Shown here: positions 35,382 through 55,897 of the stretch, in pieces
Position numbering within the stretch: the first letter of the stretch is position 1
Layout of the letters: each line of letters opens with the position of its first letter
Source: Sulfurimonas sp. HSL3-7
Lineage (GTDB): Bacteria > Campylobacterota > Campylobacteria > Campylobacterales > Sulfurimonadaceae
NCBI RefSeq assembly: GCF_039645985.1
Contig: NZ_CP147919.1
Coordinates: 1,674,001 to 1,738,000, forward strand
DNA: 64,000 nt
Direction of reading: 5' to 3'
Notes under the pieces: model-generated
Told to the model about the DNA's origin: nothing
The model's database searches: none
The model's input: only the letters and a program-made list of their open reading frames with translations
Program-made: the position numbers and the translations under genes

Positions 35382-35487
35382 TTATATCAACTTTTTATCA
35401 CAACGGTATCAAACATATTTCACTTAAAGCTGTATTTAAACTCAACATGTAAAGATATAAAGATTTTTAATGCAAGGAGTGCATAAG

Positions 35488-37872
35488 ATGAAACGAAACA
35501 CATGGGGGATTTCTGCTTTTTTAGCGGGTGCCCTGACAATCTCAACTGCGTCTATGGCGTCGGCTTCTACAGGTTATGACCAGAATCCGCCATTCAAACT
35601 TAGCAAACTCAAAAGTGAAACGATTAACGTTGCCGGGAAAAAGGTAAAATCCTATAACCCTGTCAATGATGTCAACCTTTTTATCAACTATGAACTTGGT
35701 ATGCACTGTGTCGGCTTTGAAATGAGCTACTGCTGTGTTATCCCTCCATACAACTCGATCCAATCACAAGCGGTTAGATCGGGAACCAAAGGAGACCTTC
35801 CAAAGCTTCTCACACCAAACGATAATGTCAAGATGTATTACTACACCAAAGACAACTCGTACAGTGAAGGGAACAAGATGCGCTACTGGGGCGTCCTGAA
35901 AGATGTCGACGGCAACGGCCGCATGGACGATCCGGGCGACAACGTTGCCAACTATGTCTGGAAACACCTCTTTATCTATAAAGACCTTGAAGGGACTAAA
36001 CCGGCAGGTGCGACGAAAGAGAACCGTCTCTATGTCGGTAAAGACATCAAAGTACCTATCGATTCAGGCCCGACCGGAAAACACATCGCCGGCGGCTATC
36101 TTGAATACTCTGGAAAAGACGGCAGCAACGTTGTTTTCACCGATACCTTGGTACCGGCTGTTACAGACATTCCGCTTGTTCTGACAGCGTCACACCTTTG
36201 GGATGCACTGGGTCTTCCTCTCACTGCGTTTAATGACTCTACCCGTAGAGGTAGTATCCGTTCAGTGACCGAGAGAGACTTCCAACCTTTTCAAAAATCA
36301 ACTGTTCAACTTCATAATAACGAAGGCAAACCGCTGACAGACAAAAATGGCCAACTGATTGAGTATTTCGGTACCAACCCGGTTGATATCCCGAACTGTT
36401 ATGCTTGTCACTCCCGCCAGGGTAAAGCAGCAGAGATGGCGCGTGCCGAAGGTCTGACACAGTCGGACAAAGAGTACGCATACTGGAAAACCTACCCGGA
36501 TGAGAGTGAGTATATGGCACGCCTGAGTGAAGCTTCGATCAATATCCTTTCGCTTCATGATGCGCACCATGGTACGACCTTCCTCTCGGACTATAATGAC
36601 AAAGCCTCATCATCACGCCTTGGTAAGACAGGTGAGATCAACTGTGCCGACTGTCACGGTGACAATGTCTCGGGTAACCTCCAGGAGCCGCGTCCAGGTG
36701 CGACAGGGTACAAAACAGTCAAGGCAAAAACACTGACCGAAGCGATCCACAGTTTCCACCTTGCAATGGTACCGATGCCGGATGGCGGAAAACGTTCACA
36801 GGCTTGTCAATCGTGTCACCCGACACACTTCCAGGATCCTGCGATGAACGACGACTCCAACCCGTTCCGTGTGACTGACCGTTACGGCGAAGGCCGTTTC
36901 TCCAAAGGGGATATCCGTCAAAGCGGCGGTGGCTGTTACGTACGTCGTGACGCCCACTCCAACCCGGATGCCAAACCGCCTTTCTTCCTCAATGAGTACG
37001 GTAAATACCAGCTTAACGAGGTCTCTATGAAAGACGAACATGGCAAACCGGTTAAAGAGATGCGCGGTCTTTACTGTACAAACTGTCACACTAAAGTAGC
37101 GCAGAAGATGTACGAACTCGACGATCTTAAAGCGACACAAAAACTAGAGGGGAAATCTATCCGCGGCAACACGCTTAAAGAGATGATCAAAGCCGTTACA
37201 GATGGCGATGCGAAACGTTTCAACGCACTTGCCGACCCTAAAACCGACGGTAACAACGAAGTACTGAAATACTACTCTGAGCATAAGTCGGCGACACTGG
37301 TTAAAAACGTGGCAAAAGAGGGTCTTGACCTTAAACCGTGGAATCACCCTAAAGGCGGTGAAGTACCATACGCGGCAGCTTCCGGCGGTAACGACTGGTG
37401 GTTGAGTGCATCTGAGCCTCACTGTGCGGATTGTCACATCGCGCCGTTTGTCGAGAGCGAAGGTGGCCAATACTTCCCGATCGATCAGCCGAACAAACTG
37501 TCGCTGTATCGTTACTCTAAAGCACACGGCGACCTGGCATGTCAGACATGTCACGAATCGACGCACGGGCTTTACAGTACACGCTTCGACGGGCCTGAAC
37601 GTTCAGTTGATGTAACAACGCACGAGCAGGCACTGCAGTACAGCCCGGATGGCGAATATGCCGGACCGGTAACATGTGCTGCATGTCACAGTGTCAATGA
37701 CAAAGGTGTTCCGGTACAACTCACCGGTACCGCGTACGAGAAAGATTACTGGGCTTCTGTAACACTTGCACACTTCATGCGTTCAGGTGACCAGAAACTA
37801 TCGATCAAAGACCTTGTAAAGAAATATCCTTACAAAGAGTCTAACACTATCGTTAAAAAAGGATGGAAGTAA
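35488..37872 (+). CDS. secreted seven-haem c-type cytochrome
   Basis: A 794-residue protein with a signal peptide (about 1-27, ending SMASA) and seven CxxCH haem sites with first Cys at about 304, 386, 440, 530, 646, 685 and 730. The first 300 residues have no haem motif but a Cys-rich strand, GMHCVGFEMSYCCVIPPYNS (Cys74, Cys82, Cys83), after LFINYELG. It should act in periplasmic electron transfer. I do not recognise a named enzyme and the spacing is not that of nitrite, hydroxylamine or tetrathionate reductase families. The start is chosen for the AAGGAG nine bases upstream. It is a single-gene unit with its own promoter and a hairpin after the stop. Confidence 0.85.
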   Translation: MKRNTWGISAFLAGALTISTASMASASTGYDQNPPFKLSKLKSETINVAGKKVKSYNPVNDVNLFINYELGMHCVGFEMSYCCVIPPYNSIQSQAVRSGTKGDLPKLLTPNDNVKMYYYTKDNSYSEGNKMRYWGVLKDVDGNGRMDDPGDNVANYVWKHLFIYKDLEGTKPAGATKENRLYVGKDIKVPIDSGPTGKHIAGGYLEYSGKDGSNVVFTDTLVPAVTDIPLVLTASHLWDALGLPLTAFNDSTRRGSIRSVTERDFQPFQKSTVQLHNNEGKPLTDKNGQLIEYFGTNPVDIPNCYACHSRQGKAAEMARAEGLTQSDKEYAYWKTYPDESEYMARLSEASINILSLHDAHHGTTFLSDYNDKASSSRLGKTGEINCADCHGDNVSGNLQEPRPGATGYKTVKAKTLTEAIHSFHLAMVPMPDGGKRSQACQSCHPTHFQDPAMNDDSNPFRVTDRYGEGRFSKGDIRQSGGGCYVRRDAHSNPDAKPPFFLNEYGKYQLNEVSMKDEHGKPVKEMRGLYCTNCHTKVAQKMYELDDLKATQKLEGKSIRGNTLKEMIKAVTDGDAKRFNALADPKTDGNNEVLKYYSEHKSATLVKNVAKEGLDLKPWNHPKGGEVPYAAASGGNDWWLSASEPHCADCHIAPFVESEGGQYFPIDQPNKLSLYRYSKAHGDLACQTCHESTHGLYSTRFDGPERSVDVTTHEQALQYSPDGEYAGPVTCAACHSVNDKGVPVQLTGTAYEKDYWASVTLAHFMRSGDQKLSIKDLVKKYPYKESNTIVKKGWK

Positions 37873-38496: not shown

Positions 38497-39942
38497 ATGA
38501 AAGAGTATATGCCGTTTATCAATGGAAAGAACAAGCCCTCACACCCGGGAAAGGTAATCGACGATGTCAACCCTTCGACCGGAGAGGTCTTTGCCAAAGT
38601 GCATTTGGCAAGTAAAGAGGAGATCGAAGAGGCCATCAGTACGGCTTACGCGGCATCTAAGCTCTGGGCAAAAACAACGCCGAGAGAAAAAGAGGCGGTA
38701 CTTTTAAGAGCCGCCGATATTTTCGAGAGCCGCGAAGATGAGATCAGGACTATTCTGATGCGAGAAAGCGGTTCGGTCTATGCAAAAGCGATGTTTGAAA
38801 TCGCGCTCGTTGCTGACATTTTGCGTGTCGCTGCCGGGGAAGCCAGACGTGTTTTCGGCCAGACATTCACCTCCAACGATCCTGGTGTGTTCTCCTACAG
38901 CACACGCCGTCCATTAGGCGTTATCGCCGGGATATCGCCCTTTAATGCACCGATGATTCTAAGCACAAAGAAATTTGCCATGGCCATCGCTGCAGGCAAT
39001 GCATTTGTATTGAAGCCGTCAAGCCATACACCGGTCTGCGGTCTTGTTTTCGGTGAGATCTTTAAAGAAGCGGGTCTGCCGGACGGCGTTTTGAACATCA
39101 TCCCATGTTCAAGCGGCGACCTGGGAGAGACCTTTCAAACCGATCCGCGTATTGCCATGATCACCCTGACCGGTTCAACGCATGTCGGAAAATTGGTCGC
39201 GGCGTCGGCGGCGATGCACCTGAAGAGATGTACCGTTGAACTCGGCGGTAAGTCGCCGACCATCGTACTCGGGGACGCCGATGTTGATTATGCCGTCAAT
39301 ACCGCGATCTTCAGCACTTTTCTCCATCAGGGACAGATTTGCATGGCAGGTTCACGCATTATCGTCGAAGAGAATATCTATGATGCGTTTTGCGAAAAGT
39401 TTACTGCCAAGGTTAAAACGCTGAAAGTGGGCAATCCGGAAGACCCCACCACGATTATCGGGCCTCTTATCGAAGAGGCGCAATGCCACTTTATAGACGG
39501 ATTGATCGATGATGCAGTTGAGAAAGGGGCGACGCTGCTCTCCGGGCGCGAGCATGAAGCATGTTTTTATCAACCGACTGTTGTCGCCAATGTGACCGGA
39601 GAGATGCTGATCTTTCATGAAGAGGCCTTTGGCCCCGCTGCCGCGATCATCAAAGCACACGATATCGATCACATTATCGAACTTGCCAACAACAGCTTCT
39701 ACGGGCTCAGCTCATCACTTATTACCGATAATTTGAGTGCCGCATTGCAACTTTCCGAAGAGATCGAATCGGGTATGGTGCACATCAACGGGCCGACCAT
39801 CCAGGATGAAGCCCATATTCCGTTCGGAGGCGTCAAAGAGAGCGGCATGGGGCGCGAGGGAGGTCATTTTGCTATCGAAGAGATGACCGAACTAAAATGG
39901 GTAACCGTCGAAGCCGCAGGTAACAGGGACTACCCTTTTTAA
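38497..39942 (+). CDS. pchA: aromatic aldehyde dehydrogenase, probable 4-hydroxybenzaldehyde dehydrogenase
   Basis: A 481-residue NAD(P)-dependent aldehyde dehydrogenase of the benzaldehyde/vanillin/salicylaldehyde branch. Catalytic Cys282 lies in GQICMAGSR, the general-base Glu248 in VELGGKSP, the NAD-loop GSTHVG at 226-231 and Asn150 in ISPFNAP. In the cresol pathway this step converts 4-hydroxybenzaldehyde to 4-hydroxybenzoate. The substrate is inferred from the p-cresol methylhydroxylase genes 5 kb downstream and from the shared promoter box, in an order reminiscent of pchA-C-X-F in Pseudomonas putida. It is soluble, without signal peptide. Confidence 0.8.
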   Translation: MKEYMPFINGKNKPSHPGKVIDDVNPSTGEVFAKVHLASKEEIEEAISTAYAASKLWAKTTPREKEAVLLRAADIFESREDEIRTILMRESGSVYAKAMFEIALVADILRVAAGEARRVFGQTFTSNDPGVFSYSTRRPLGVIAGISPFNAPMILSTKKFAMAIAAGNAFVLKPSSHTPVCGLVFGEIFKEAGLPDGVLNIIPCSSGDLGETFQTDPRIAMITLTGSTHVGKLVAASAAMHLKRCTVELGGKSPTIVLGDADVDYAVNTAIFSTFLHQGQICMAGSRIIVEENIYDAFCEKFTAKVKTLKVGNPEDPTTIIGPLIEEAQCHFIDGLIDDAVEKGATLLSGREHEACFYQPTVVANVTGEMLIFHEEAFGPAAAIIKAHDIDHIIELANNSFYGLSSSLITDNLSAALQLSEEIESGMVHINGPTIQDEAHIPFGGVKESGMGREGGHFAIEEMTELKWVTVEAAGNRDYPF

Positions 39943-40011
39943 AATCCTGCCCCCTTTTGGGATCGAGCCTCTCTGGATCCTATTTAACTCTTTAACTGTA
40001 TAGGTTTCAAA

Positions 40012-40860
40012 ATGATCAATAAATTATCGGGTATCCCGATCAACAAAGCGTTGAAAAAATATATTTTTATTTTTATCGGGGCCTCTTCATTGGCCCTGGG
40101 CATTGTACTGTTTTTACTCCCAAATCACATCGTAGCCGGAGGAACACCCGGCATATCGATATTGTTAAACTACTTGACCGGTATTCCGGCGGGTATGCTG
40201 ATGTTTCTGATCAACATACCTCTCGTCTTGATGAGTATAAAATATATCAGCAAAGGGTTTGCGGTCCGAACCGTCTTTTCGATTGTCGTTTCATCTTCGA
40301 TGGTCGATTTTTTACGCGAATACATTCAGGTCGCCCCCTGGACGAACGATCCCATTTTGGGCAGTCTGTTCGGCGGCATCGCCATCGGCATAGGGCTCGG
40401 ATTTATCATCGCCGGCAATGCTTCGGCCGGAGGCCCATCTATTGTTGCAAGGTATATAGCGGATAAGATGGAATGGAGACAGAACAACGTCATTATCATA
40501 ATGGATGTGATGATCGTCCTGGCTGCCGGTATCGCTTTTGCAAGTATCGAGTACGCCCTGTTAAGCTTGATGAGCGTCTATGCAACAGGACGAAGTCTGG
40601 ACATGCTGATCTCGGGAAGGCCCTCGAAAAAAGTGGTCCATATCTTTTCAAAAAATGTCAGCCTCCTGCGTCACAATATCATTGAAAAGCTCGGAAGTGA
40701 AGACGTTGTGATGGAAGGGGTTGGATTCAATACGGGAGAGACCCGTAAAATTTTGATGCTTGTAGCCGAGAACAATACGATCCGTGTTTTGCGTAAAATC
40801 GTAAAAGAACATGATCAAGAAGGTTTTTTGGTGGTGATTGAAGCCTCGGAGCTTCATTAG
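40012..40860 (+). CDS. YitT family membrane protein with C-terminal DUF2179 domain
   Basis: A 282-residue protein: five to six transmembrane helices (about 15-195) with family stretches LPNHIVAGGTPGISILLNYLTGIPAG and GFIIAGNASAGGPSIVARY, then a cytoplasmic DUF2179 domain (about 200-280; GRPSKKVVHIFSK, EGVGFNTGETRKIL). YitT proteins are probably transporters or sensors of unknown substrate. It follows pchA by 69 bp without an own box, so it is probably co-transcribed. A role in aromatic uptake is possible but not shown. Confidence 0.85.
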   Translation: MINKLSGIPINKALKKYIFIFIGASSLALGIVLFLLPNHIVAGGTPGISILLNYLTGIPAGMLMFLINIPLVLMSIKYISKGFAVRTVFSIVVSSSMVDFLREYIQVAPWTNDPILGSLFGGIAIGIGLGFIIAGNASAGGPSIVARYIADKMEWRQNNVIIIMDVMIVLAAGIAFASIEYALLSLMSVYATGRSLDMLISGRPSKKVVHIFSKNVSLLRHNIIEKLGSEDVVMEGVGFNTGETRKILMLVAENNTIRVLRKIVKEHDQEGFLVVIEASELH

Positions 40861-40871
40861 AAAACCTGTCA

Positions 40872-40902
40872 ATCATACAGCACGACCGTCGTATGATCTT
40901 TT
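40872..40902. terminator. bidirectional hairpin between yitT-like gene and response regulator
   Basis: ATCATAC (40872-40878) pairs with GTATGAT (40891-40897), followed by CTTTT. It lies between two convergent genes. A further CACGAC/GTCGTG pair overlaps it. Confidence 0.45.
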
Positions 40903-40939
40903 GCTTTGTCGTGTATCGAGAAGCGGGTTTCGGCTCGCC

Positions 40940-41686
40940 CTACAGGGTGATCTTATACCCGATTTTAGAGTGACAGGTAATAAAATCTTTCGGCAGCTTT
41001 TGTCGAAGCCTGAACATCAATGAACGCAAAGCCCCCTCCCCCACAAGTTCACCGTCCCAGACAAAATCCTCGATCCGTTCCACCGTAACAATTTTGCCGA
41101 GATTTTTCATCAGAAGCTTGAGGAGTTTATTTTCTTTATCTTTTAATTTGAACGTTGCGCCGTTGAAAAGCAAAACAGAATTTTCATTATCATAAATATA
41201 TCCGTGACGCAGTGTAATAAAACGTTCACTGGCCTGTTGCTCAACGGCGAGCTTATTCTGCAGGGAGATATTTTCTGACTTGACATCGGTAATTTCAGAA
41301 GAGAGTTTTTGATTTTCGGAAAATGTTTTCAGGGCAATTTCAACAGCTGTTTTCAATTCGATCTCTTTAAACGGCTTGAGAATATAACCGTAGGGCTTGA
41401 TATTGATCGCCCTTTCAATCGTCTTGTTTTTGTCGTTAGCCGTTAAAAAGACGATGGGGGCGGAGAGGGTGCCTGAGATTGCTTCTGCAACGGCAATGCC
41501 GTCTTCTCTATCCTGGAGGGTGATATCCATCAGGATTAGATCGGGGTTTTTCGTCTTGGCTAGATGAAGCGCCCTCTCCCCGTTGGCAGCGATCCCCACC
41601 ACATCGTAATCAAAATGGATAAGTGTCTCTTTAATGTTCAAAGCAATGATACTTTCATCTTCGACAATTAAAATTTTTCTTTTCAA
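40940..41686 (-). CDS. response regulator, receiver plus OmpR/PhoB-type DNA-binding domain
   Basis: A 248-residue regulator. Residues 4-120 are a receiver domain (acidic pair Glu9-Asp10, phospho-acceptor Asp54 in LILMDIT, Thr in VFLTAND, Lys in YILKPF). A linker of about 45 residues looks coiled-coil, and residues 160-248 are a winged helix with KLKDKENKLLKLLMKN and SLMFRLRQKL. The start is the TTG overlapping the kinase stop (TTGA), with AAGGAAAGG just upstream; a longer frame into the kinase gene is unlikely. It is the natural candidate to bind the 11-bp spaced boxes at 38017, 38429 and 43105, since OmpR/PhoB-type proteins bind tandem half-sites of that period. Confidence 0.88.
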   Translation of the reverse strand: MKRKILIVEDESIIALNIKETLIHFDYDVVGIAANGERALHLAKTKNPDLILMDITLQDREDGIAVAEAISGTLSAPIVFLTANDKNKTIERAINIKPYGYILKPFKEIELKTAVEIALKTFSENQKLSSEITDVKSENISLQNKLAVEQQASERFITLRHGYIYDNENSVLLFNGATFKLKDKENKLLKLLMKNLGKIVTVERIEDFVWDGELVGEGALRSLMFRLRQKLPKDFITCHSKIGYKITL

Positions 41687-42999
41687 GCCTTTCCTTTTTG
41701 TTTCGGAATGAATGTAATAGCGCATTTGAAACCGTTTTCTGAGTCGGTCTCGATCTCGCCGTTTAACTGACATTCGGTAATCGTATTAATCAGCTGGCAT
41801 CCGAGTGATGTGGAGGTGCTGACTTTGTCACGGTTGATCCCGATGCCGTTGTCGTTGACACCGAACACAATCGATCCTTCTGCCCCGTTTTTAATAAAAA
41901 TATCAATTACACCGGTATCAGTATTTATAAAGGCGTGTTTGATAGCGTTTAAAAACAGCTCATGCACGATTAGGGCGACGAGAACTGCATAATCCATTGA
42001 CAAAAAGAGATCATCCGCCTCCAGACATACCGATATCTTTTTATTTTGAGCATACAGATCGATCATCGCCGATGAGAGCTGTTCGAGATGCGATCGCATG
42101 TTGATAGTTGCCAGGTCGCTGTTTTGGTAGAGCATTTCATGGACAAGAGCGATAGCGTAGATACGGCTTTGGCTTTTAGAGAGGGCATCTTTTACTTCCG
42201 AATTCGTCTCTCTTCGGCTCTGCATCTGAAGGAGTGAAGAGATCACTTCCAGATTGTTTTTGACGCGATGGTGTATCTCTTTGATAAGAACTTCTTTATC
42301 CTGAAGCGAGTTTTTCAACGCCATATTCTGCGCGGTAATAATTCTTCGTCTCTCTTTCTGCTCGGTTATATCCCGACCGAAGGCACAGATGAACTCTTTT
42401 TCACCGTTACGAAAGTAGTTCGTTGAGACGGAAACCGGCAAGGTACTGCCGTCTTTTCTCGTCTGCCTGCTCTCAAAACAGATAAACTGTTTCTGCTTGA
42501 TCTGCTCTAAAAATTTTTCCGTATTTTTATTGTAATCGGAATCGATATCGCTTAGTTTCATCTGTAACAGCTCTTCTTTGCTGTACCCCAACATTTTACA
42601 AGCCGCATCGTTGACGTAAAAGAAACGGGTGTCAAAGGTAAACCAATAAATCGCATCGGCACTGTTATCGAGGGCAAAGTTAAAAAGTTGAAGATTCTCT
42701 TTCTCTTTTTGCTGATATTTGGAAAGTTTGACCAGGGCATCTTCCGCGACCAGGGCCGTCCGTCTGAGAAGTACATAGAGAAAAAGTGCACTGAGAACAA
42801 AAAAGACAACCCCGAGTAAAAACGGCAGTCCGAAATTGTCATTTCCAGAATGAACCAGATTCATCGAGAGCCTGTCTACGATAGCAACGCCGAGCACCCC
42901 GGCAACAGCGAATCCCAATGCCTGAAGTTTGACCCGATTTTCATTTGATATTTTTAGGAGTGCGCTCTCTCGTCTGGGTATCAACAATCTTCCTCTCAT
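41683..42999 (-). CDS. sensor histidine kinase (PAS, HisKA_2-type)
   Basis: A 438-residue kinase with two transmembrane helices (about 27-46 and 58-78) and a very short periplasmic loop, a PAS domain (about 105-215; SADAIYWFTFDTRFFYVNDAACKMLGYS), and a HisKA_2 dimerisation box with EIHHRVKNNLEVISSLLQMQ (likely phospho-His244). A HATPase domain follows (NAIKHAFINTDTG, NDNGIGI). The short loop argues against direct periplasmic sensing; the PAS domain or the membrane helices may detect the signal. The ATG at 42999 lacks a clear ribosome site, so a TTG a few codons in is possible. It is divergent from pchC and coupled to the regulator. Confidence 0.88.
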   Translation of the reverse strand: MRGRLLIPRRESALLKISNENRVKLQALGFAVAGVLGVAIVDRLSMNLVHSGNDNFGLPFLLGVVFFVLSALFLYVLLRRTALVAEDALVKLSKYQQKEKENLQLFNFALDNSADAIYWFTFDTRFFYVNDAACKMLGYSKEELLQMKLSDIDSDYNKNTEKFLEQIKQKQFICFESRQTRKDGSTLPVSVSTNYFRNGEKEFICAFGRDITEQKERRRIITAQNMALKNSLQDKEVLIKEIHHRVKNNLEVISSLLQMQSRRETNSEVKDALSKSQSRIYAIALVHEMLYQNSDLATINMRSHLEQLSSAMIDLYAQNKKISVCLEADDLFLSMDYAVLVALIVHELFLNAIKHAFINTDTGVIDIFIKNGAEGSIVFGVNDNGIGINRDKVSTSTSLGCQLINTITECQLNGEIETDSENGFKCAITFIPKQKGKA

Positions 43000-43104
43000 T
43001 TTTAATCAATTTGTACACTTACATTGCATTATTTTACCTTATACGAAGCGTCAATCGTCAATTTTACGCTATTTAACGCCGAATTGTCCCATTACGCTTT
43101 AGAT

Positions 43105-43136
43105 GCGATTTTTATGCGATTTTTTTATTTTATATT
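43105..43136 (+). promoter_or_regulatory. activator-type box plus -10 upstream of pchC (box C)
   Basis: Two tandem ATGCGATTTTT units (43103-43113 and 43114-43124) give GCGA elements at 43105 and 43116, 11 bp apart. A -10 TATATT lies at 43131-43136, 26 bp from the first GCGA, the same spacing as boxes A and B. The pchC ATG is 62 bp from the box and has AGGAGG at 43157-43162. Confidence 0.68.
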
Positions 43137-43166
43137 TGTTTTGTTCAAAATTTACCAGGAGGTTAC

Positions 43167-43493
43167 ATGAAGAAGTTGGCTTTAGGTCTATTATTGGTGA
43201 CACCTTCCATCTTTGCGGTGGAATTAGGGAAAAACTTTGCATTTAAGAATGGAGAGCATGCCTACCAGAAGGTATGTGCCCACTGTCATACACTAAAAAC
43301 CGCCCCCCATACGATATTTACAAAAATGGATGATCAAGCAGGGATCGAAGCACGGGCGAAGGGGATTATGTACACCGTCAGACATGGAAGTAACGCAATG
43401 CCTGCTTTTAGAAAATCAGAGATCGATGATGCGGTATTGAAGGATTTGGCAACAAAACTGGCCGACGGCACAATCACTTTAACAGAAAAATAG
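43167..43493 (+). CDS. pchC: p-cresol methylhydroxylase cytochrome c subunit
   Basis: A 108-residue class I-type cytochrome c: signal peptide (about 1-17, ending SIFA), haem site CAHCH (Cys37, Cys40, His41) and the axial Met in NAMPAF (Met78). Size and the spacing from haem site to NAMPAF match the cytochrome subunit of the Pseudomonas enzyme, where it accepts electrons from the FAD of the flavoprotein subunit. The pchF-like gene two places downstream supports this. It would act in the periplasm and hand electrons to the respiratory chain. Confidence 0.85.
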   Translation: MKKLALGLLLVTPSIFAVELGKNFAFKNGEHAYQKVCAHCHTLKTAPHTIFTKMDDQAGIEARAKGIMYTVRHGSNAMPAFRKSEIDDAVLKDLATKLADGTITLTEK

Positions 43494-43504
43494 GGAGAGA
43501 ACAG

Positions 43505-44071
43505 ATGATTCGAAGAACATTTCTTCAAGGGTCTGCAGCAGCTGTAGCCGCGATGTGCATCCCTTTATCGGCGGCCGGATTCGGTATCGGTTCGACTAAA
43601 AAAAAGATAGCGGTTGTCTCTGAAGCGGCATATGAGACAGGGTACGTCAACGCCGTCTCCACCAAAGTGGATGACGTCGTCGTTCTTGGCTCAGACAGAT
43701 TGAAAAATCTCCATATCCTGTCGGCTGCAATGAAAGAAAACCGGGGTACCCTGTTCTGTGGTTTGCTAGTGCATAGCGATTTTACACTTTTACACCATGT
43801 CGCAGCAGCACATAAGGCAAAGATTGTTTCAGAAGCGGCACACACCCCGTCGCATAACGGAACCAGTCACACAGAAAACTCATTTGCAAGTATCTCCGTA
43901 AAAAAAGCATTTGATACATTTTCCTCGATCGCGAACGGCCAATACGGAACGGCGCTTTCATCGTACCACACTCTCGGCCCGCACAACACGCTGTCCGTTG
44001 CAAAGCAGATTGACTTTGTTTCCAATCACACAACGAAAAACGCTTTCGTATCGTTTGTAATTAAAGCCTAA
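43505..44071 (+). CDS. Tat-exported protein in the pchX position
   Basis: A 188-residue protein with a twin-arginine signal: Arg3-Arg4 in RRTFLQ followed by a hydrophobic stretch ending about residue 25. The mature part has a small alpha/beta pattern (KKIAVVSEA, DDVVVLGSDRL, GTLFCGLLVHSDFTLL), several His residues (LHHVAAAH) and a Ser/Thr/His-rich segment. I recognise no family. In Pseudomonas putida an open frame of unknown function, pchX, lies between pchC and pchF; this gene holds the same place with gaps of 11 bp on each side. Tat export suggests it folds before export, perhaps with the FAD subunit. Confidence 0.6.
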   Translation: MIRRTFLQGSAAAVAAMCIPLSAAGFGIGSTKKKIAVVSEAAYETGYVNAVSTKVDDVVVLGSDRLKNLHILSAAMKENRGTLFCGLLVHSDFTLLHHVAAAHKAKIVSEAAHTPSHNGTSHTENSFASISVKKAFDTFSSIANGQYGTALSSYHTLGPHNTLSVAKQIDFVSNHTTKNAFVSFVIKA

Positions 44072-44082
44072 AGGAGCATTAA

Positions 44083-45630
44083 ATGAGTAAGAAACTTACG
44101 GCATTACCTGAAACCGTTTCTCTTGAAACAATGAATAAAGCAATTGAAGAATTTGTAAAAATCCTGGGTGCCGATAACGTACTGATCGGCGATGAGGAGA
44201 TAGCCCCTTACAAAAAAATCATGATGGCAGTCAAGATCGAAGATCATATGCCTTCACTGGCGTTGCAGGCCTCGACAAAAGAAGAAGTTATCGCCATTGT
44301 CAGGGTATGTAACAAGTACGTCATCCCCGTCTGGACGTTTTCAACCGGTAAAAATATGGGATACGGTACCGCTGCACCGGCAAAGCCCGGAACTGTCATC
44401 CTTGATCTTCACAAAATGAATAAGATCATCGAGGTGAATCCCGACCTCTGTTATGCCGTACTTGAACCGGGTGTTACCTACCAGCAACTCTTTGACTACA
44501 TTCAGGAAAAAGGGTACAAACTATGGCTCTCCTGCCCGGCCCCGAGTGCCATTGCAAGTCCGGTCGGCAATACAATGGACCGGGGTGTCGGTTATACGCC
44601 ATACGGCGAACACTTCATGATGCAGTGCGGAATGGAGATCGTATTGGCGGACGGTTCATCCTTTAAAACCGGTATGGGCGGCATCAAGAACTCTACCAGT
44701 TCATCCGTTTTCAAATGGGGCTACGGACCGTCGCTGGACGGTATCTTTACACAGAGCAACTATGGTATCTGCGTTGAAATGGGAATGTGGCTTATGCCTG
44801 AACCGCCGGCATTCAAACCGTTCTGTATTACATTGGACACAGTTGAAGATGTTGAAAAAGTCGTCGAAGTTCTTCGACCGCTTCGTATCGCAAACATTAT
44901 TCCAAATGCTTTCACGATCGCCAGTACGCTTTATGAAGCAGCAGGTGTTGTCAGCCGTTCCGACTATGTTGACGGAAACCGTTCCATCACGGAAGAGGAG
45001 ATCGAAAAGATCAAAAAAGACACAGGAATGGGTACGTGGAACGTTTATGCGGCCTTGTACGGCACCGAAGAAGCGAATGAGTTGAACTGGAAAATCATCC
45101 AGTCGGTCATCAATGCCAACTTTAAAAACCATAAATTCCTGACATCCAAAGAGATGGGTGATGACCCGATATTCAAATATCGTGCCGACTTGATGCGCGG
45201 CTATATGACACTCCAGGAGTTTGGCCTCTATAACTGGAGAGGCGGCGGCGGAAGTATGTGGTTTGCCCCGGTATCGCCGGCGGAAGGAAAACACACCCTT
45301 AACCAATCGGCACTGGCTAAAAAGATTATGAATAAATACGGCTTCGATTATGTCGCCGAGTTTATCGTCGGTTGGCGGGACATGCACCATATTATCGACC
45401 TGCTCTATAACCGAAATGATCCAGAAGAGATGCAGCGCGCACATGACTGTTACGCTGAATTGGTAGATGCATTTGCGCAACAGGGTTACGGTGTATATCG
45501 GACAAGCAGTGGATTTATGGATCTGGTTGCTGAAACGTATGGTCCTGAAATTCACAATGTATTTCAAAAGATAAAGCGGGCACTCGATCCTAAAGGGATT
45601 TTGGCGCCGGGTAAATCGGGCATCTATTGA
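44083..45630 (+). CDS. pchF: p-cresol methylhydroxylase flavoprotein subunit
   Basis: A 515-residue VAO/PCMH-family flavoprotein that oxidises the methyl of p-cresol to 4-hydroxybenzyl alcohol and then the aldehyde, with water as oxygen source. The PP-type FAD domain is N-terminal (VWTFSTGKNMGYG). The residue linking FAD in the Pseudomonas enzyme (Tyr384) is Tyr383 in LYNWRGGGG. Its active-site residues Tyr95, Glu380, Glu427, His436, Tyr473 and Arg474 correspond to Tyr94, Glu379, Glu426, His435, Tyr472 and Arg473, all offset by one. That argues for PCMH rather than vanillyl-alcohol oxidase, which uses a His link. No own signal is seen; export may occur with the Tat protein upstream. A related 4-alkylphenol substrate remains possible. 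Confidence 0.9.
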   Translation: MSKKLTALPETVSLETMNKAIEEFVKILGADNVLIGDEEIAPYKKIMMAVKIEDHMPSLALQASTKEEVIAIVRVCNKYVIPVWTFSTGKNMGYGTAAPAKPGTVILDLHKMNKIIEVNPDLCYAVLEPGVTYQQLFDYIQEKGYKLWLSCPAPSAIASPVGNTMDRGVGYTPYGEHFMMQCGMEIVLADGSSFKTGMGGIKNSTSSSVFKWGYGPSLDGIFTQSNYGICVEMGMWLMPEPPAFKPFCITLDTVEDVEKVVEVLRPLRIANIIPNAFTIASTLYEAAGVVSRSDYVDGNRSITEEEIEKIKKDTGMGTWNVYAALYGTEEANELNWKIIQSVINANFKNHKFLTSKEMGDDPIFKYRADLMRGYMTLQEFGLYNWRGGGGSMWFAPVSPAEGKHTLNQSALAKKIMNKYGFDYVAEFIVGWRDMHHIIDLLYNRNDPEEMQRAHDCYAELVDAFAQQGYGVYRTSSGFMDLVAETYGPEIHNVFQKIKRALDPKGILAPGKSGIY

Positions 45631-48738: not shown

Positions 48739-50580
48739 TCAGTATACGCAGACACCATAAACTTTTATCGTCTCAATGACATCAGCAAGACCGGATATAC
48801 TTAACTCCACACTGTCAAAATCTTTGCTTGAATTGAAGCTGTAGTAAGCTTTCCCTGTCCCGTTCAAACCAAGCAGGTCTAAAGTCAGCAGTGAACTGCC
48901 GCTCACATCTTCTTGCAGCACCCCGTTTAAATAGGTCTTGATGGTAAGGTTGTCGACTAGATTGACCGTAAGCAAATCCCCCGTGTCTTGCACCACAAAT
49001 CCGACCGTGCTTCCTCCCGTGTGGACTTCATCTTCATCTTTGACAAGTATAACAGCAGAACCGGCCAATTCAAGCAGTGTCGTAACTTCTGCTGCTGTTT
49101 CGGCATCCGCATCAACAAGATCGGCATCACCCTCAATGCTAGGGCACAAAATCCCCAACAGCGTACAAAGCAAACCGCCAGCGCTGCTTTCTACAGATGC
49201 CCGATCATTTCCTAAGTTAATAATAGCCTCGGCATTACTACCACAGAGTCCCACCAAATTGGCTGTGTTATCACACACATCTCCCGTGCCGTCACCGTCA
49301 CTGTCAATCTGGTCGGCATTTGGTACGAGCGGACAGTTGTCCTCACTGTCAACTACCCCGTCATTGTCATTGTCATTATCACAGGCGTCACCGATACCAT
49401 CCAGGTCACTGTCCTCTTGCAGCGGGTTTGGAATCAGAAGACAGTTGTCGTTACCGTCATCGATCCCGTCGCCATCACTGTCGGTGTTGCTGTCACAGGC
49501 GTCCCCTACACCATCACCATCTCCATCTTCCTGACCTGGATTTGCTGTGATTATACAGTTATCATTTACATCGAGAATACCATCGTTATCATCATCAGTA
49601 TCGCAGCTGTTACCTATGCCGTCTCCGTCACTGTCAGTCTGATCGGGATTGGGAATCAAGACACAGTTATCACTTCCGTCCAGAATACCGTCATTGTCAT
49701 CATCTGTATCACAGGCATCTCCAGCACCGTCACCGTCGGTATCGGCCTGGTCCGGATTGGACACTAATATACAGTTGTCGGCACTGTCTTCGATACTGTC
49801 TCCATCATCATCATTGTCACAGGCATTCCCCGCACCATCACCGTCGGTGTCAGCTTGATCTGGATTGATAGTCACAATACAGTTATCGCTGTTGTCCAGA
49901 ATTCCATCATTGTCATCATCAGTGTCACAGGCGTCCCCTGCACCGTCACCATCGGTGTCCGCCTGATCCGGGTTTAGTATAAGAAGACAGTTGTCAATTC
50001 CATCTTCTATACCGTCATTATCAGTGTCCGTGTTACTGTCACAAGCATCGCCGATGCCGTCATTATCGGTATCAGTCTGATCAGGATTGCTTACGTTCGG
50101 GCAGTTGTCGTTCGGGTCCTTAAGTCCGTCACCATCACTGTCTCCGTTGCTGCCAGAGACAAATAATAATGTGTAGGTACTGATTGGGTGCAGACCATTC
50201 AAATCTGTTACTTGACGCGTAACGACAGCTCTGTATTCCGTATACGGAAGCATCTCGGCATCAAACGTGAAGTAAATGGTATTTTTGTCATGCATGATCG
50301 TACCCCCAACATGCACAGTATTATTGCCTTCCGTTACATAAAATGTTGTATCATTGATCGATGCGGGGTCCAACTCTTTACTGAAAACAATCATAATAGA
50401 CGCATTAACATCTACGTTTGACATTCCCTGTGTCGGGCTTGTTGAGACGACATATGGCTCGTTACCAAGTCCAGTTCCTCCCAGTAGTCTGTCTTCTGAG
50501 TCACATCCTGACAGCACAAATACGGTGCTAAGGATCAGACCCAAAACAATCTCTTTTATATTTTGTACCGAAAAATTCAT
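48739..50580 (-). CDS. lipoprotein with thrombospondin type 3 calcium-binding repeats
   Basis: A 613-residue lipoprotein: signal with lipobox LSGC (Cys about 26), an Ig-like Big_5-type domain (about 40-145; STSPTQGMSNVDVNASIMIVF), then about nine tandem TSP3 repeats (about 148-440) with the consensus DxDxDGxGDxCD and DNC, expected to bind many Ca2+ ions. The C-terminal 170 residues form a separate beta-rich domain with four Cys, unrecognised. AAGGAG precedes the ATG. It follows the OmpA-family gene by 12 bp, so both belong to one operon. It probably sits at the outer membrane or cell surface. Confidence 0.87.
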   Translation of the reverse strand: MNFSVQNIKEIVLGLILSTVFVLSGCDSEDRLLGGTGLGNEPYVVSTSPTQGMSNVDVNASIMIVFSKELDPASINDTTFYVTEGNNTVHVGGTIMHDKNTIYFTFDAEMLPYTEYRAVVTRQVTDLNGLHPISTYTLLFVSGSNGDSDGDGLKDPNDNCPNVSNPDQTDTDNDGIGDACDSNTDTDNDGIEDGIDNCLLILNPDQADTDGDGAGDACDTDDDNDGILDNSDNCIVTINPDQADTDGDGAGNACDNDDDGDSIEDSADNCILVSNPDQADTDGDGAGDACDTDDDNDGILDGSDNCVLIPNPDQTDSDGDGIGNSCDTDDDNDGILDVNDNCIITANPGQEDGDGDGVGDACDSNTDSDGDGIDDGNDNCLLIPNPLQEDSDLDGIGDACDNDNDNDGVVDSEDNCPLVPNADQIDSDGDGTGDVCDNTANLVGLCGSNAEAIINLGNDRASVESSAGGLLCTLLGILCPSIEGDADLVDADAETAAEVTTLLELAGSAVILVKDEDEVHTGGSTVGFVVQDTGDLLTVNLVDNLTIKTYLNGVLQEDVSGSSLLTLDLLGLNGTGKAYYSFNSSKDFDSVELSISGLADVIETIKVYGVCVY

Positions 50581-52010: not shown

Positions 52011-55000
52011 TTACGGTAAAATCGTAAACGAATAGGCCGAACCAGCATCCGGTGATGAAGTCGGATAAGCAGTGTTGGCGCCTACGACAATATCCATTCC
52101 GCTAATATCTACTGATTTTCCAAAATAACCTCCGGATACGTCGATCTTGGCCATCTGAAGGTAATTATCCGTCCCGTCATTTTGAAAAAGGTAAGCCGAA
52201 TTTGCATGATGGGCACCGACAATGACATATCCCCCGTCTATGGCCACCGAGATTCCGAACTGGTCATTCCCTCCGGCATCATCGGCGCTGAGCTTGGCTA
52301 CTTGATTGAAACTGTCGCCGCCGTCGTTTTTAAAGACGTAAGCTGAACCGGCATTTGTTACCCCGTTGGGATCTTCGTACCAGGCACCGACGACCACATA
52401 ATCCCCGTCAATGTCGATCGAGCGTCCGAACAGGTCCCCCGCTTCCGCGTCGTCGGCATGGATTTTCGCCACTTCGTTGAACGTATCTGCTGCGGAATCC
52501 TTTTTGAAGATATAGGCTGATCCGGCATTGTTGATACCTAGGGCATGTTCGTAAAAGGCACCGACGGTAATATACTCCCCGCTGACAGATACGGAATAAC
52601 CGAAGTAGTCACCAGCTGTGGCATCCGAAGCGGTAAGCTTATCTACCTGCGTATAGTGATCCAGGCCGTCATTTTTAAAGACATAGGCAGCACCCGCACA
52701 ACATGAACTTCCTACGTATGCATTGTCCGCACCTGCAACAATATAATTGCCGCTTATGTCAACCACCCAACCCAAATGATCATAGACGGCGCCATCATTC
52801 GCAACAAGCTTGGCTATCTGCGTGTAGTTGTCCGAAGCGTCTTTTTTGAATACATATAAAGCCCCGCTGTCAAAAGATGCACTGCTATTATTATTGTCTT
52901 CGCCCATTGCGCCGACTACCACATAATCCCCCTCAATAGCTACCGAATTACCAAAATAGTCGCCTTCTGCACCATCGTCGGATGTCAATTCGGCAATCCG
53001 AATATAATGCCCGTTAATATTTTTTTTATAAACATATGCCGCACCGACATTACCAACACCGCCTACATCCGCAAGCCGAGCACCAACAACAGCATACTCC
53101 CCATTAATGGCCACGTCGTATCCAAAATCATCCTCTGTTCTAGGAGTGTCAGCTTCGAGTTCATTAAGTTCAATGACCTGAAAATCGCCATCACTGACCA
53201 CAACGGTACGGACAGCAGTTGCAATATTGCCTGCTGTATCACCAACCGTGTAGGTAACACTATAGGTTCCGACGATAGAGGTGTCGACATCGTCGCTTGT
53301 CTGTATGGATGCCGTAACATCACCGTCGATATTATCATGCGCCGTGGCCCCCGGATCGCTAAAGGTGTCGCCCAGCTGCAGATTTAAAGGATTATCCCCT
53401 ATAATCGTAACGACGGGAGGTGTTGTATCTGCTGTCGGATCACTGACCACAACGGTACGGACAGCAGTTGTAATATTGCCTGCTGTATCACCAACCGTGT
53501 AGTTAACACTATAGGTTCCGACAACAGAGATGTTGACATCGTCGCTTGTCTGTATGGATGCCGTAACATCACCGTCGATATTATCATGCGCCGTGGCCCC
53601 CGGATCGCTAAAGGTGTCGCCCAGCTGCAGATTTAAAGGGTTATCCCCTATAATCGTGATGATAGGAAACGTAGTATCAGGTACACCGCCCAGCGATACA
53701 AACCTGACAGCATCGGCGCTGGTGCCTCCCGTTTCCACATCACGCACAAGGGTAACATTGCCACTGGTGCCCGCATTGAATGAGAAGGTGCCCAGTAAAA
53801 CCCAGTCTCCCGAACCCTGATTCTGATCAATCCCTATCGGCGTAGAACCCCCGGCATGATTGACCGTATAGCTGGCGTCTGTATCACGATCATAGACGGT
53901 AGAACCGGTATACCATACATAAACCTCATAGTAGTCTGCCTCCGGCAGAACGGGTGTCCAGGTCGCGCTGCTGCCGATGGTTCTGCTGAAAACAGAACTG
54001 TCGGCATACTCATCCGGCGCCCCGGACTCGGACCAGGAACCGGTCGTGCTGAAGCCCGAATCATGATTGTCAACGATGATCGCGCCACTGCCTGCAGCCG
54101 GATTGACTGTAATTTCTATATCATCATATCCCTGCAGTTCTGTATCATCTGCACTCAGCCTGAGCACATAAGTTCCATCCTGGCTGAAGCTGACTGTCGT
54201 ATCTTCCGCAGCGGCATTGCTGAATGTTACGGTCCCGGGACCACTGACCTGTGTCCACACGACCGTATAAGGAGCAGGAAGACCGTCATCGGTCACCGTA
54301 CCGTTCAGGCTGGCACCTGCAGGCAGCGTGATCGTCTGATCGGAACCCGCATTTACTACCGGAGCATGGTTTGTAGGCACACCGCCCTGAGACACAAACC
54401 TGACAGCATCGGCGCTGGTGCCTCCCGTTTCCACATCACGCACAAGGGTAACATTGCCACTGGTGCCCGCATTGAATGAGAAGGTGCCCAGTAAAACCCA
54501 GTCTCCCGAACCCTGATTCTGATCAATCCCTATCGGCGTAGAACCCCCGGCATGATTGACCGTATAGCTGGCGTCTGTATCACGATCATAGACGGTAGAA
54601 CCGGTATACCATACATAAACCTCATAGTAGTCTGCCTCCGGCAGAACGGGTGTCCAGGTCGCGCTGCTGCCGATGGTTCTGCTGAAAACAGAACTGTCGG
54701 CATACTCATCCGGCGCCCCGGACTCGGACCAGGAACCGGTCGTGCTGAAGCCCGAATCATGATTGTCAACGATGATCGCGCCACTGCCTGCAGCCGGATT
54801 GACTGTAATTTCTATATCATCATATCCCTGCAGTTCTGTATCATCTGCACTCAGCCTGAGCACATAAGTTCCATCCTGGCTGAAGCTGACTGTCGTATCT
54901 TCCGCAGCGGCATTGCTGAATGTTACGGTCCCGGGACCACTGACCTGTGTCCACACGACCGTATAAGGAGCAGGAAGACCGTCATCGGTCACCGTACCGT

Positions 55001-55529
55001 TCAGGCTGGCACCTGCAGGCAGCGTGATCGTCTGATCGGAACCCGCATTTACTACCGGAGCATGGTTTGTAGGCACACCGCCCTGAGACACAAACCTGAC
55101 AGCATCGGCGCTGGTGCCTCCCGTTTCCACATCACGCACAAGGGTAACATTGCCACTGGTGCCCGCATTGAATGAGAAGGTGCCCAGTAAAACCCAGTCT
55201 CCCGAACCCTGATTCTGATCAATCCCTATCGGCGTAGAACCCCCGGCATGATTGACCGTATAGCTGGCGTCTGTATCACGATCATAGACGGTAGAACCGG
55301 TATACCATACATAAACCTCATAGTAGTCTGCCTCCGGCAGAACGGGTGTCCAGGTCGCGCTGCTGCCGATGGTTCTGCTGAAAACAGAACTGTCGGCATA
55401 CTCATCCGGCGCCCCGGACTCGGACCAGGAACCGGTCGTGCTGAAGCCCGAATCATGATTGTCAACGATGATCTCAGCAGCATACAGGAACTTAACCATA
55501 AAAAGCGCAATAAAAAATACACGTTTCAT
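52011..55529 (-). CDS. large secreted multidomain protein (golvesin-like, PKD, Cry22-like Ig, FG-GAP)
   Basis: An 1172-residue protein with a signal peptide (about 1-17). Domain order is: golvesin-like beta domain (about 18-145), PKD-type Ig (about 157-247), the same pair repeated (250-480), a third golvesin-like domain (482-610), two Cry22/DUF5011-type Ig domains of 83 residues each (about 612-780), and about seven FG-GAP/integrin-alpha-like repeats (790-1172; units such as GDYFGNSVAIEGDYVVVGA). Such architecture is typical of adhesins or matrix proteins. No LPxTG, autotransporter or T9SS tail is seen. A GGAAGGA ribosome site precedes the ATG, and a c-di-GMP-type riboswitch candidate lies about 100-160 nt upstream. 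Confidence 0.85.
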   Translation of the reverse strand: MKRVFFIALFMVKFLYAAEIIVDNHDSGFSTTGSWSESGAPDEYADSSVFSRTIGSSATWTPVLPEADYYEVYVWYTGSTVYDRDTDASYTVNHAGGSTPIGIDQNQGSGDWVLLGTFSFNAGTSGNVTLVRDVETGGTSADAVRFVSQGGVPTNHAPVVNAGSDQTITLPAGASLNGTVTDDGLPAPYTVVWTQVSGPGTVTFSNAAAEDTTVSFSQDGTYVLRLSADDTELQGYDDIEITVNPAAGSGAIIVDNHDSGFSTTGSWSESGAPDEYADSSVFSRTIGSSATWTPVLPEADYYEVYVWYTGSTVYDRDTDASYTVNHAGGSTPIGIDQNQGSGDWVLLGTFSFNAGTSGNVTLVRDVETGGTSADAVRFVSQGGVPTNHAPVVNAGSDQTITLPAGASLNGTVTDDGLPAPYTVVWTQVSGPGTVTFSNAAAEDTTVSFSQDGTYVLRLSADDTELQGYDDIEITVNPAAGSGAIIVDNHDSGFSTTGSWSESGAPDEYADSSVFSRTIGSSATWTPVLPEADYYEVYVWYTGSTVYDRDTDASYTVNHAGGSTPIGIDQNQGSGDWVLLGTFSFNAGTSGNVTLVRDVETGGTSADAVRFVSLGGVPDTTFPIITIIGDNPLNLQLGDTFSDPGATAHDNIDGDVTASIQTSDDVNISVVGTYSVNYTVGDTAGNITTAVRTVVVSDPTADTTPPVVTIIGDNPLNLQLGDTFSDPGATAHDNIDGDVTASIQTSDDVDTSIVGTYSVTYTVGDTAGNIATAVRTVVVSDGDFQVIELNELEADTPRTEDDFGYDVAINGEYAVVGARLADVGGVGNVGAAYVYKKNINGHYIRIAELTSDDGAEGDYFGNSVAIEGDYVVVGAMGEDNNNSSASFDSGALYVFKKDASDNYTQIAKLVANDGAVYDHLGWVVDISGNYIVAGADNAYVGSSCCAGAAYVFKNDGLDHYTQVDKLTASDATAGDYFGYSVSVSGEYITVGAFYEHALGINNAGSAYIFKKDSAADTFNEVAKIHADDAEAGDLFGRSIDIDGDYVVVGAWYEDPNGVTNAGSAYVFKNDGGDSFNQVAKLSADDAGGNDQFGISVAIDGGYVIVGAHHANSAYLFQNDGTDNYLQMAKIDVSGGYFGKSVDISGMDIVVGANTAYPTSSPDAGSAYSFTILP
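53203..53700 (-). repeat. 249-bp tandem duplication (Cry22-like Ig domains)
   Basis: Two successive units of 249 bp (83 codons) inside the large secreted gene are nearly identical; for example the block ACGGTACGGACAGCAGTT recurs at 53203 and 53452. Only a few substitutions separate them, changing DVDTSI to DVNISV and T to N. Confidence 0.75.
53697..55473 (-). repeat. 696-bp tandem repeat array, two and a half copies
   Basis: Copy 1 spans 54778-55473, copy 2 54082-54777, and a partial copy 3 about 53697-54081. Each full unit encodes a golvesin-like plus a PKD domain (232 residues). Comparing the lines by eye I found no base difference between copies within the shared parts. That implies very recent duplication or active gene conversion, and possible length variation in the population or assembly collapse. 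Confidence 0.88.
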
Positions 55530-55627
55530 TGTCTCATCCTTCCAATATTTTAGAATAGATGAATTTTGAACAGATGACTTCTAGCCAGCATTTCAAAACG
55601 ACATTTAATGTATGATAGTTGCTGAGT

Positions 55628-55687
55628 AGCCAGGCGTTCTTCTGGAGGTCCTTAGCTTTCCGTCCTGCCCTCACAGACAGTTTGGCT
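55628..55687 (-). ncRNA. candidate c-di-GMP-I (GEMM) riboswitch
   Basis: Read on the minus strand: P1 arm AGCCA, then AA, a P2 stem CTGTCT/GGGCAG closed by the GNRA tetraloop GTGA. Next come GACGGAAAGCT (GEMM consensus GACGCAAAGCC), AAGGACCTC (consensus ACGGGTCTC) and a closing P1 arm TGGCT. These are the main conserved blocks of the class I c-di-GMP aptamer in order. It lies about 100 nt upstream of the start of the large secreted protein, a common GEMM target type. P3 is weak, and no terminator is obvious. A second CTGGCTA about 35 nt downstream could compete with the P1 arm. Confidence 0.68.
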
Positions 55688-55897
55688 TTATTGCAGTTAA
55701 GAACATGATATCACATATAAAAATCAAAGTAAAGTAATCTAATACAAATCTCGATATAAAAGACAAGTCAATTGACCCGATCTAATAAAATAAAAAGTGA
55801 ACATATTCTATCAACAGAGCCGTTTTGAATAAATGTTTGAATAATGCTTATCCGGAGTCAGAGCTGGAATTGTATTTGCCGAAATTAACATTTTTTC

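Follow-up and report, generated by a model that had tools for sequence, protein, structure and literature searches.

PchX, a proposed Tat escort for the signal-less flavoprotein of p-cresol methylhydroxylase in Sulfurimonas and other bacteria

Introduction

p-Cresol methylhydroxylase (PCMH) is a textbook flavocytochrome that has long been known to be periplasmic, and c-type cytochromes cross the membrane unfolded via Sec and have their haem added outside. In Pseudomonas putida the enzyme (PDB 1dii) is encoded by the cluster pchA-pchC-pchX-pchF. Here we examine a related locus in a 64,000-nucleotide stretch of the genome of Sulfurimonas sp. HSL3-7, a bacterium of the sulfur-oxidiser type (contig NZ_CP147919.1, positions 1,674,001 to 1,738,000; hereafter the window, whose numbering we use throughout), with a focus on pchX, the gene between the cytochrome gene (C) and the flavoprotein gene (F).

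Several described systems bear on how such a flavoprotein reaches the periplasm. Excerpts from a 2025 paper describe PchCF as periplasmic and its flavoprotein as having no predicted signal peptide (PMC12724174, citing Hopper 1985), and assume that the signal of the cytochrome guides export of the flavoprotein (PMC12724174). That paper concerns the bisphenol F hydroxylase BpfAB of Sphingobium yanoikuyae, which in the same excerpts likewise pairs a VAO/PCMH flavoprotein with a cytochrome. Covalent attachment of flavin adenine dinucleotide (FAD) has been reported to require the cytochrome (Kim 1995, by its title as cited in PMC12052999). In FAD-glucose dehydrogenase (FADGDH), a signal-less FAD dehydrogenase feeding a c-type cytochrome is encoded together with a small gamma subunit that bears a twin-arginine translocation (Tat) signal; gamma has five alpha helices and has been given a part in folding as well (PMC6719666).

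Results and Discussion

The catalytic core of the locus closely resembles PCMH of P. putida. Based on homology, the product of 44083-45630 (forward strand; 515 aa) is the PCMH flavoprotein subunit PchF: it matches the PchF chain of 1dii at E 7e-204 with 56% identity, and in our tree, which includes eugenol oxidase relatives, it falls inside the PCMH clade, a supported group that also holds 1dii. An earlier sequence-only reading of this DNA had named the protein as PCMH and had matched seven PchF residues to positions here that are uniformly shifted by one. Both claims hold: in our 73-member family alignment, Tyr95, Glu380, Tyr384, Glu427, His436, Tyr473 and Arg474 correspond to Tyr94, Glu379, Tyr383, Glu426, His435, Tyr472 and Arg473 here, offset by one throughout and including the FAD-linking tyrosine (Tyr383), and PchF Asp440 corresponds to Asp439. 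In the same alignment all 9 campylobacterotan PCMH rows have the FAD-linking tyrosine, as do 32 of 33 from proteobacteria (the remaining one has a gap there), and other residues occupy the position in the eugenol-oxidase, 9h40-type and Tat-fused groups. We looked for an export signal or signal peptide on the window PchF and found none. The gene at 43167-43493 (forward strand) encodes a PchC-like, presumptively Sec-exported cytochrome c with CAHCH and NAMPAF motifs, which matches Pfam Cytochrome_CBB3 (E 2e-12) and the PchC chain of 1dii (E 6e-6).

The predicted activity of this pair is hydroxylation of p-cresol, a 4-alkylphenol, with cytochrome c as the acceptor. The wider family also acts on vanillyl alcohol, eugenol, 4-ethylphenol and bisphenol F, so the true substrate might instead be another 4-alkylphenol or a 4-hydroxybenzyl alcohol. 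We regard this as possible but doubtful, since every checked PCMH active-site residue is kept and the protein lies in the PCMH clade. The likeness to P. putida extends to the C-X-F gene order, the checked active-site residues, the tyrosine for covalent FAD, the small cytochrome c and an aldehyde dehydrogenase partner. Unlike in P. putida, the aldehyde dehydrogenase gene is set apart by a YitT gene and a two-component pair, the host belongs to another phylum, the X protein is only ~20% identical to pseudomonad X, and the downstream 4-hydroxybenzoate route was not found.

Between C and F, the gene at 43505-44071 (forward strand) encodes PchX, a 188-aa protein whose MIRRTFLQ start and following hydrophobic stretch form a Tat signal and which we propose to be the export escort, or hitch-hiker partner, of the flavoprotein. 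The earlier reading had listed it as an unknown Tat protein; the signal stands, and a probable role in the exit of PchF was missed. Among 34 aligned X proteins the twin arginine is invariant and a C-terminal VSF is conserved, with little else shared and with neither a conserved CXXCH nor any other obvious cofactor motif. The family is fast-evolving: 54/64 X proteins join a single profile on the mature part, as compared with 0/332 decoys. Searches of X against Pfam and NCBIfam gave no convincing family match beyond generic Tat-signal models, and those against PDB sequences gave none beyond signals. An AlphaFold model of X (mean predicted local distance difference test score, pLDDT, of 70) has an alpha/beta core with pLDDT >90 over much of residues 31-110; in fold searches with it no Foldseek match reached E 0.001 and the best VIA Z was 6.0, and we assign no fold. 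A full-text search for "pchX", with subscription literature outside its scope, found no relevant paper.

The evidence for what X does comes from a comparison across loci. We examined 74 loci from plasmids, genomes and metagenome-assembled genomes (MAGs), of which 72 were usable; L045 (at a contig edge) and L154 (with an F truncated by IS5) were set aside. Neighbourhood, for both X and the cytochrome, means within 2.5 kb. In 61 of the 65 cytochrome-coupled loci a separate Tat-signal X lies beside F; three others lack X and have an F that carries the Tat signal as a fusion, and in the last X is frameshifted. When F proteins are clustered at 85% identity, 30 of 33 cytochrome-coupled clusters have X and 2 are fused. 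As a background rate, a Tat-like start was found in 8/1034 other open reading frames of the same loci. The gene order can be C-X-F, X-F-C, F-C-X or X-C-F while the partnership of X and F stays; because order varies so freely, the association is more than one frozen operon. TatC is present in 17/17 genomes tested, Sulfurimonas sp. HSL3-7 included. In separate observations on damaged loci, X of Aromatoleum diolicum (L044:4477-5217) is frameshifted after the Tat signal, pointing either to a possible error of sequencing or to an escort that may be in decay, and on P. aromaticivorans pBN3 (L154:2962-5338) an IS5 transposase gene abuts the 5'-truncated F and the X gene is gone.

The loci without X amount to a natural experiment. 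The three fused loci (L134, L147 and L148) belong to Novosphingobium ES2-1, THN1 and N. humi. They retain the cytochrome gene, directly 3' of which lies an F with its own N-terminal Tat signal (for example, MSDLNLDRRGLLGAGIIGAASLGLGTGAS), and no X was found within 2.5 kb; a wider search of the Novosphingobium plasmids for X gave signal-only matches alone, although the same search also missed the known X of L135. In the tree these fused proteins group with PDB 9ffk on the PCMH side, nested among X-bearing lineages. Neither a neighbouring X nor a Tat signal was found for the Rhodococcus opacus eugenol oxidase (1150 bits to PDB 5fxd over its full length) or for the three remaining cytochrome-free relatives. 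Loss of X thus coincides either with a Tat signal gained on F or with no periplasmic cytochrome partner. Because a Tat-signal X accompanies F in cytochrome-coupled loci, a fused signal appears where X is missing and the oxidases have neither, we propose that PchX is most likely a Tat hitch-hiker escort that carries PchF.

Two other explanations of X deserve consideration. In the first, X would be a periplasmic assembly factor, chaperoning either the pairing of C with F or flavinylation, or else a third redox subunit whose use of Tat is incidental. The predicted alpha/beta core beyond the signal is in keeping with this, as is the folding role credited to FADGDH gamma. However, X has none of the cofactor motifs noted above, appears dispensable once F has its own Tat signal, and varies from 110 to 237 aa in length (signal included) while keeping the twin arginine constant; we consider this explanation unlikely. 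In the second, X has some other periplasmic role and PchF is carried by the signal peptide of the cytochrome, as excerpts from PMC12724174 suggest for BpfAB and PchCF. The cytochrome always bears a signal and does form a complex with F. A Sec-exported, unfolded cytochrome cannot carry a folded FAD protein, however, and the signal fused to F occurs exactly where X has been lost and the cytochrome is still present. Export on the cytochrome signal strikes us as quite improbable. As for BpfAB, a Tat-signal X follows the cytochrome gene at L137, a related locus of S. yanoikuyae, giving the order F-C-X instead of C-X-F; the excerpted text credits the cytochrome signal peptide and does not discuss a third gene.

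In the escort model, PchF would fold in the cytoplasm around FAD and bind PchX, whose twin-arginine signal would take the folded flavoprotein through the Tat translocase. PchC would be exported separately by Sec and receive haem in the periplasm, where C and F would pair and the Tyr383-FAD bond would form; a meeting of the subunits at that stage agrees with the reported need for the cytochrome in covalent FAD attachment. The enzyme would then convert p-cresol and water to 4-hydroxybenzyl alcohol and on to 4-hydroxybenzaldehyde, with electrons probably passing to cytochrome c and the respiratory chain, and the aldehyde dehydrogenase would yield 4-hydroxybenzoate. PchX would thus work like FADGDH gamma. 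Gamma has five alpha helices and the predicted core of X is alpha/beta, so that X may well be an independent solution; the flavoprotein families differ, and searches with X found neither a sequence link to gamma nor a significant fold match.

Some of our data weigh against this model. The cytochrome-free controls are few (4 loci, of which two come from one actinobacterial clade and one, L143, is a distant GlcD-type outlier), L138, L139 and L142 have X with no cytochrome within 2.5 kb, and 10 short or divergent X proteins are not joined to the X family by sequence. We infer both the physical X-F complex and the order of assembly from the comparison of loci. For the module as a whole, regulator functions and the substrate are assigned by homology only, and the missing 4-hydroxybenzoate route described below was judged from a limited set of families. 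The Tat signal on X, its absence from F, the co-occurrence of X and F and the signal fusion are all directly visible in the sequences. On balance we think it probable that PchX proteins are an as yet unassigned family that evolved independently and serves as Tat hitch-hiker escorts for the signal-less flavoproteins of cytochrome-coupled 4-phenol hydroxylases in several phyla, with the Novosphingobium fusions as a natural by-pass. Our confidence is slightly greater still for the window module taken as PCMH with PchX as Tat escort, PchC exported via Sec and an aldehyde dehydrogenase leading to 4-hydroxybenzoate.

The aldehyde dehydrogenase gene (38497-39942, forward strand; Aldedh E 2e-162) encodes a full-length, PchA-like enzyme that is probably a 4-hydroxybenzaldehyde dehydrogenase. 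It is 67-93% identical to the aldehyde dehydrogenases of 5 other campylobacterotan PCMH loci and 57% identical to that of A. diolicum; with most of its counterparts next to proteobacterial pchF genes the identity is 41-44%. The earlier reading had proposed a pchA-C-X-F-type set, and all four genes it named are intact open reading frames of the expected families at the coordinates given here. The C-X-F operon and its partner are indeed present, though the aldehyde dehydrogenase gene lies 3.2 kb away, a gap that the reading did not mention. In between is a YitT-family membrane protein gene that accompanies it (40012-40860, forward strand; YitT_membrane E 4e-54), whose product is 74% identical to the aldehyde dehydrogenase neighbour in Sulfuricurvum kujiense pSULKU01 and in a Sulfuricurvum MAG. 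Also in the gap, on the reverse strand, are genes for a response regulator with receiver and winged-helix domains (40940-41773; Response_reg, Trans_reg_C), probably the regulator of the module, and for a PAS-HisKA_2 sensor histidine kinase (41683-42999; HisKA_2, PAS, HATPase_c), probably a sensor of 4-alkylphenols. The response regulator is kept beside C-X-F and also beside a second, 9h40-type enzyme in family f7, and the kinase is 44-77% identical at related campylobacterotan loci. Given that a related kinase/regulator pair (45-50% identity) adjoins the different flavocytochrome of the f7 genomes, this two-component system is likely a phenol-responsive regulator of the module.

To follow the fate of the product, we searched the HSL3-7 genome for 4-hydroxybenzoate genes. 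We found no pobA at the family cut-off and no intradiol dioxygenase (protocatechuate 3,4-dioxygenase), and the sole LigB relative is weak (E 2e-20). Two xanthine-dehydrogenase-type molybdenum hydroxylases were rejected as 4-hydroxybenzoyl-CoA reductase (295 and 380 bits against a cut-off of 994.55), as was benzoyl-CoA reductase, for which there is one HGD-D protein only. Of the oxidation pathway in the earlier reading, the module leading to 4-hydroxybenzoate is thus in place and a further route was not found among the limited set of families searched. The pathway here therefore probably ends at 4-hydroxybenzoate with the ring not degraded further, which would make the module an electron source, a means of detoxification, or both. 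By comparison, two other Campylobacterota genomes (G061 and G301; loci L123 and L124) have a true pobA with a strong LigB protein nearby, the pair in G061 being within 17 kb of PCMH, which suggests protocatechuate 4,5-cleavage and fuller degradation of p-cresol. The tyrosine lyase ThiH of thiamine synthesis produces p-cresol, but detoxification of p-cresol from the host's own ThiH is hardly credible here and we reject it, as this genome has no ThiH above the cut-off (weak radical-SAM matches alone) and G061 is the only one of the eight PCMH-bearing Campylobacterota genomes that does.

The distribution of PCMH in Campylobacterota is patchy. Of 397 genomes of the phylum that we searched, 27 gave a VAO/PCMH-type match with an E value no worse than 1e-60 and 8, this one included, have PCMH at 60% identity or more. 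PCMH is thus rare in the phylum, in line with the remark of the sequence-only reading that aromatic degradation is rare there; the cluster is kept in Sulfuricurvum and a few others. The other 19 matches are ~33-37% identical, and the nine of them placed in our tree group with PDB 9h40 in a clade of their own that is without the FAD tyrosine. The host has a complete 2.87-Mb genome and belongs to Sulfurimonadaceae, also the family of S. kujiense, in which PCMH occurs in 7/228 genomes and in 0/7 other members of the host's own genus. On S. kujiense pSULKU01 (NC_014754) we find the same histidine kinase, response regulator and YitT genes, with 92% identity for F, 93% for the aldehyde dehydrogenase, 80% for the cytochrome and 58% for X, and Sulfuricurvum MAGs have the same gene set. 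The S. kujiense cluster differs in being plasmid-borne, in having the aldehyde dehydrogenase and YitT genes downstream on the opposite strand, and in an OprD porin gene that adjoins F. This patchiness, together with the plasmid copy, suggests that PCMH has been horizontally transferred. Separately, L088-L096 (families f2, f3 and f7) make up another clade of campylobacterotan flavocytochromes; it is related to 9h40, with the order X-F-C and no FAD tyrosine.

Other features of the window lie outside the module. Upstream of it, 35470-37872 (forward strand) encodes an 800-aa multihaem c-type cytochrome with many CXXCH motifs. On the reverse strand, 48739-50580 encodes a probable lipoprotein of 613 aa, in which many Asp-rich repeats resemble calcium-binding ones, and 52011-55529 a 1172-aa secreted protein in which three near-identical tandem repeats of ~250 aa precede additional shorter ones. 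A cyclic di-GMP (c-di-GMP)-I riboswitch (55622-55696, reverse strand; 45 bits, E 1.4e-5) lies upstream of the latter gene, ~90 bases from its start, so this extracellular repeat protein is probably under c-di-GMP control.

Conclusions

PCMH is periplasmic, its flavoprotein has no signal peptide and the middle gene of its cluster has had no assigned role; our comparison gives PchX a testable job. If true, the escort model would correct the recent explanation of export by the cytochrome signal. It would also explain why FAD is not bound covalently until the cytochrome is present, since the two subunits would not meet before reaching the periplasm. For biotechnology, co-expressed X may be needed for a correctly placed enzyme. 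For the ecology of the family, the module would provide a side-chain-oxidising electron source in a few Sulfurimonadaceae, including one from an oil cavern in which it is plasmid-borne.

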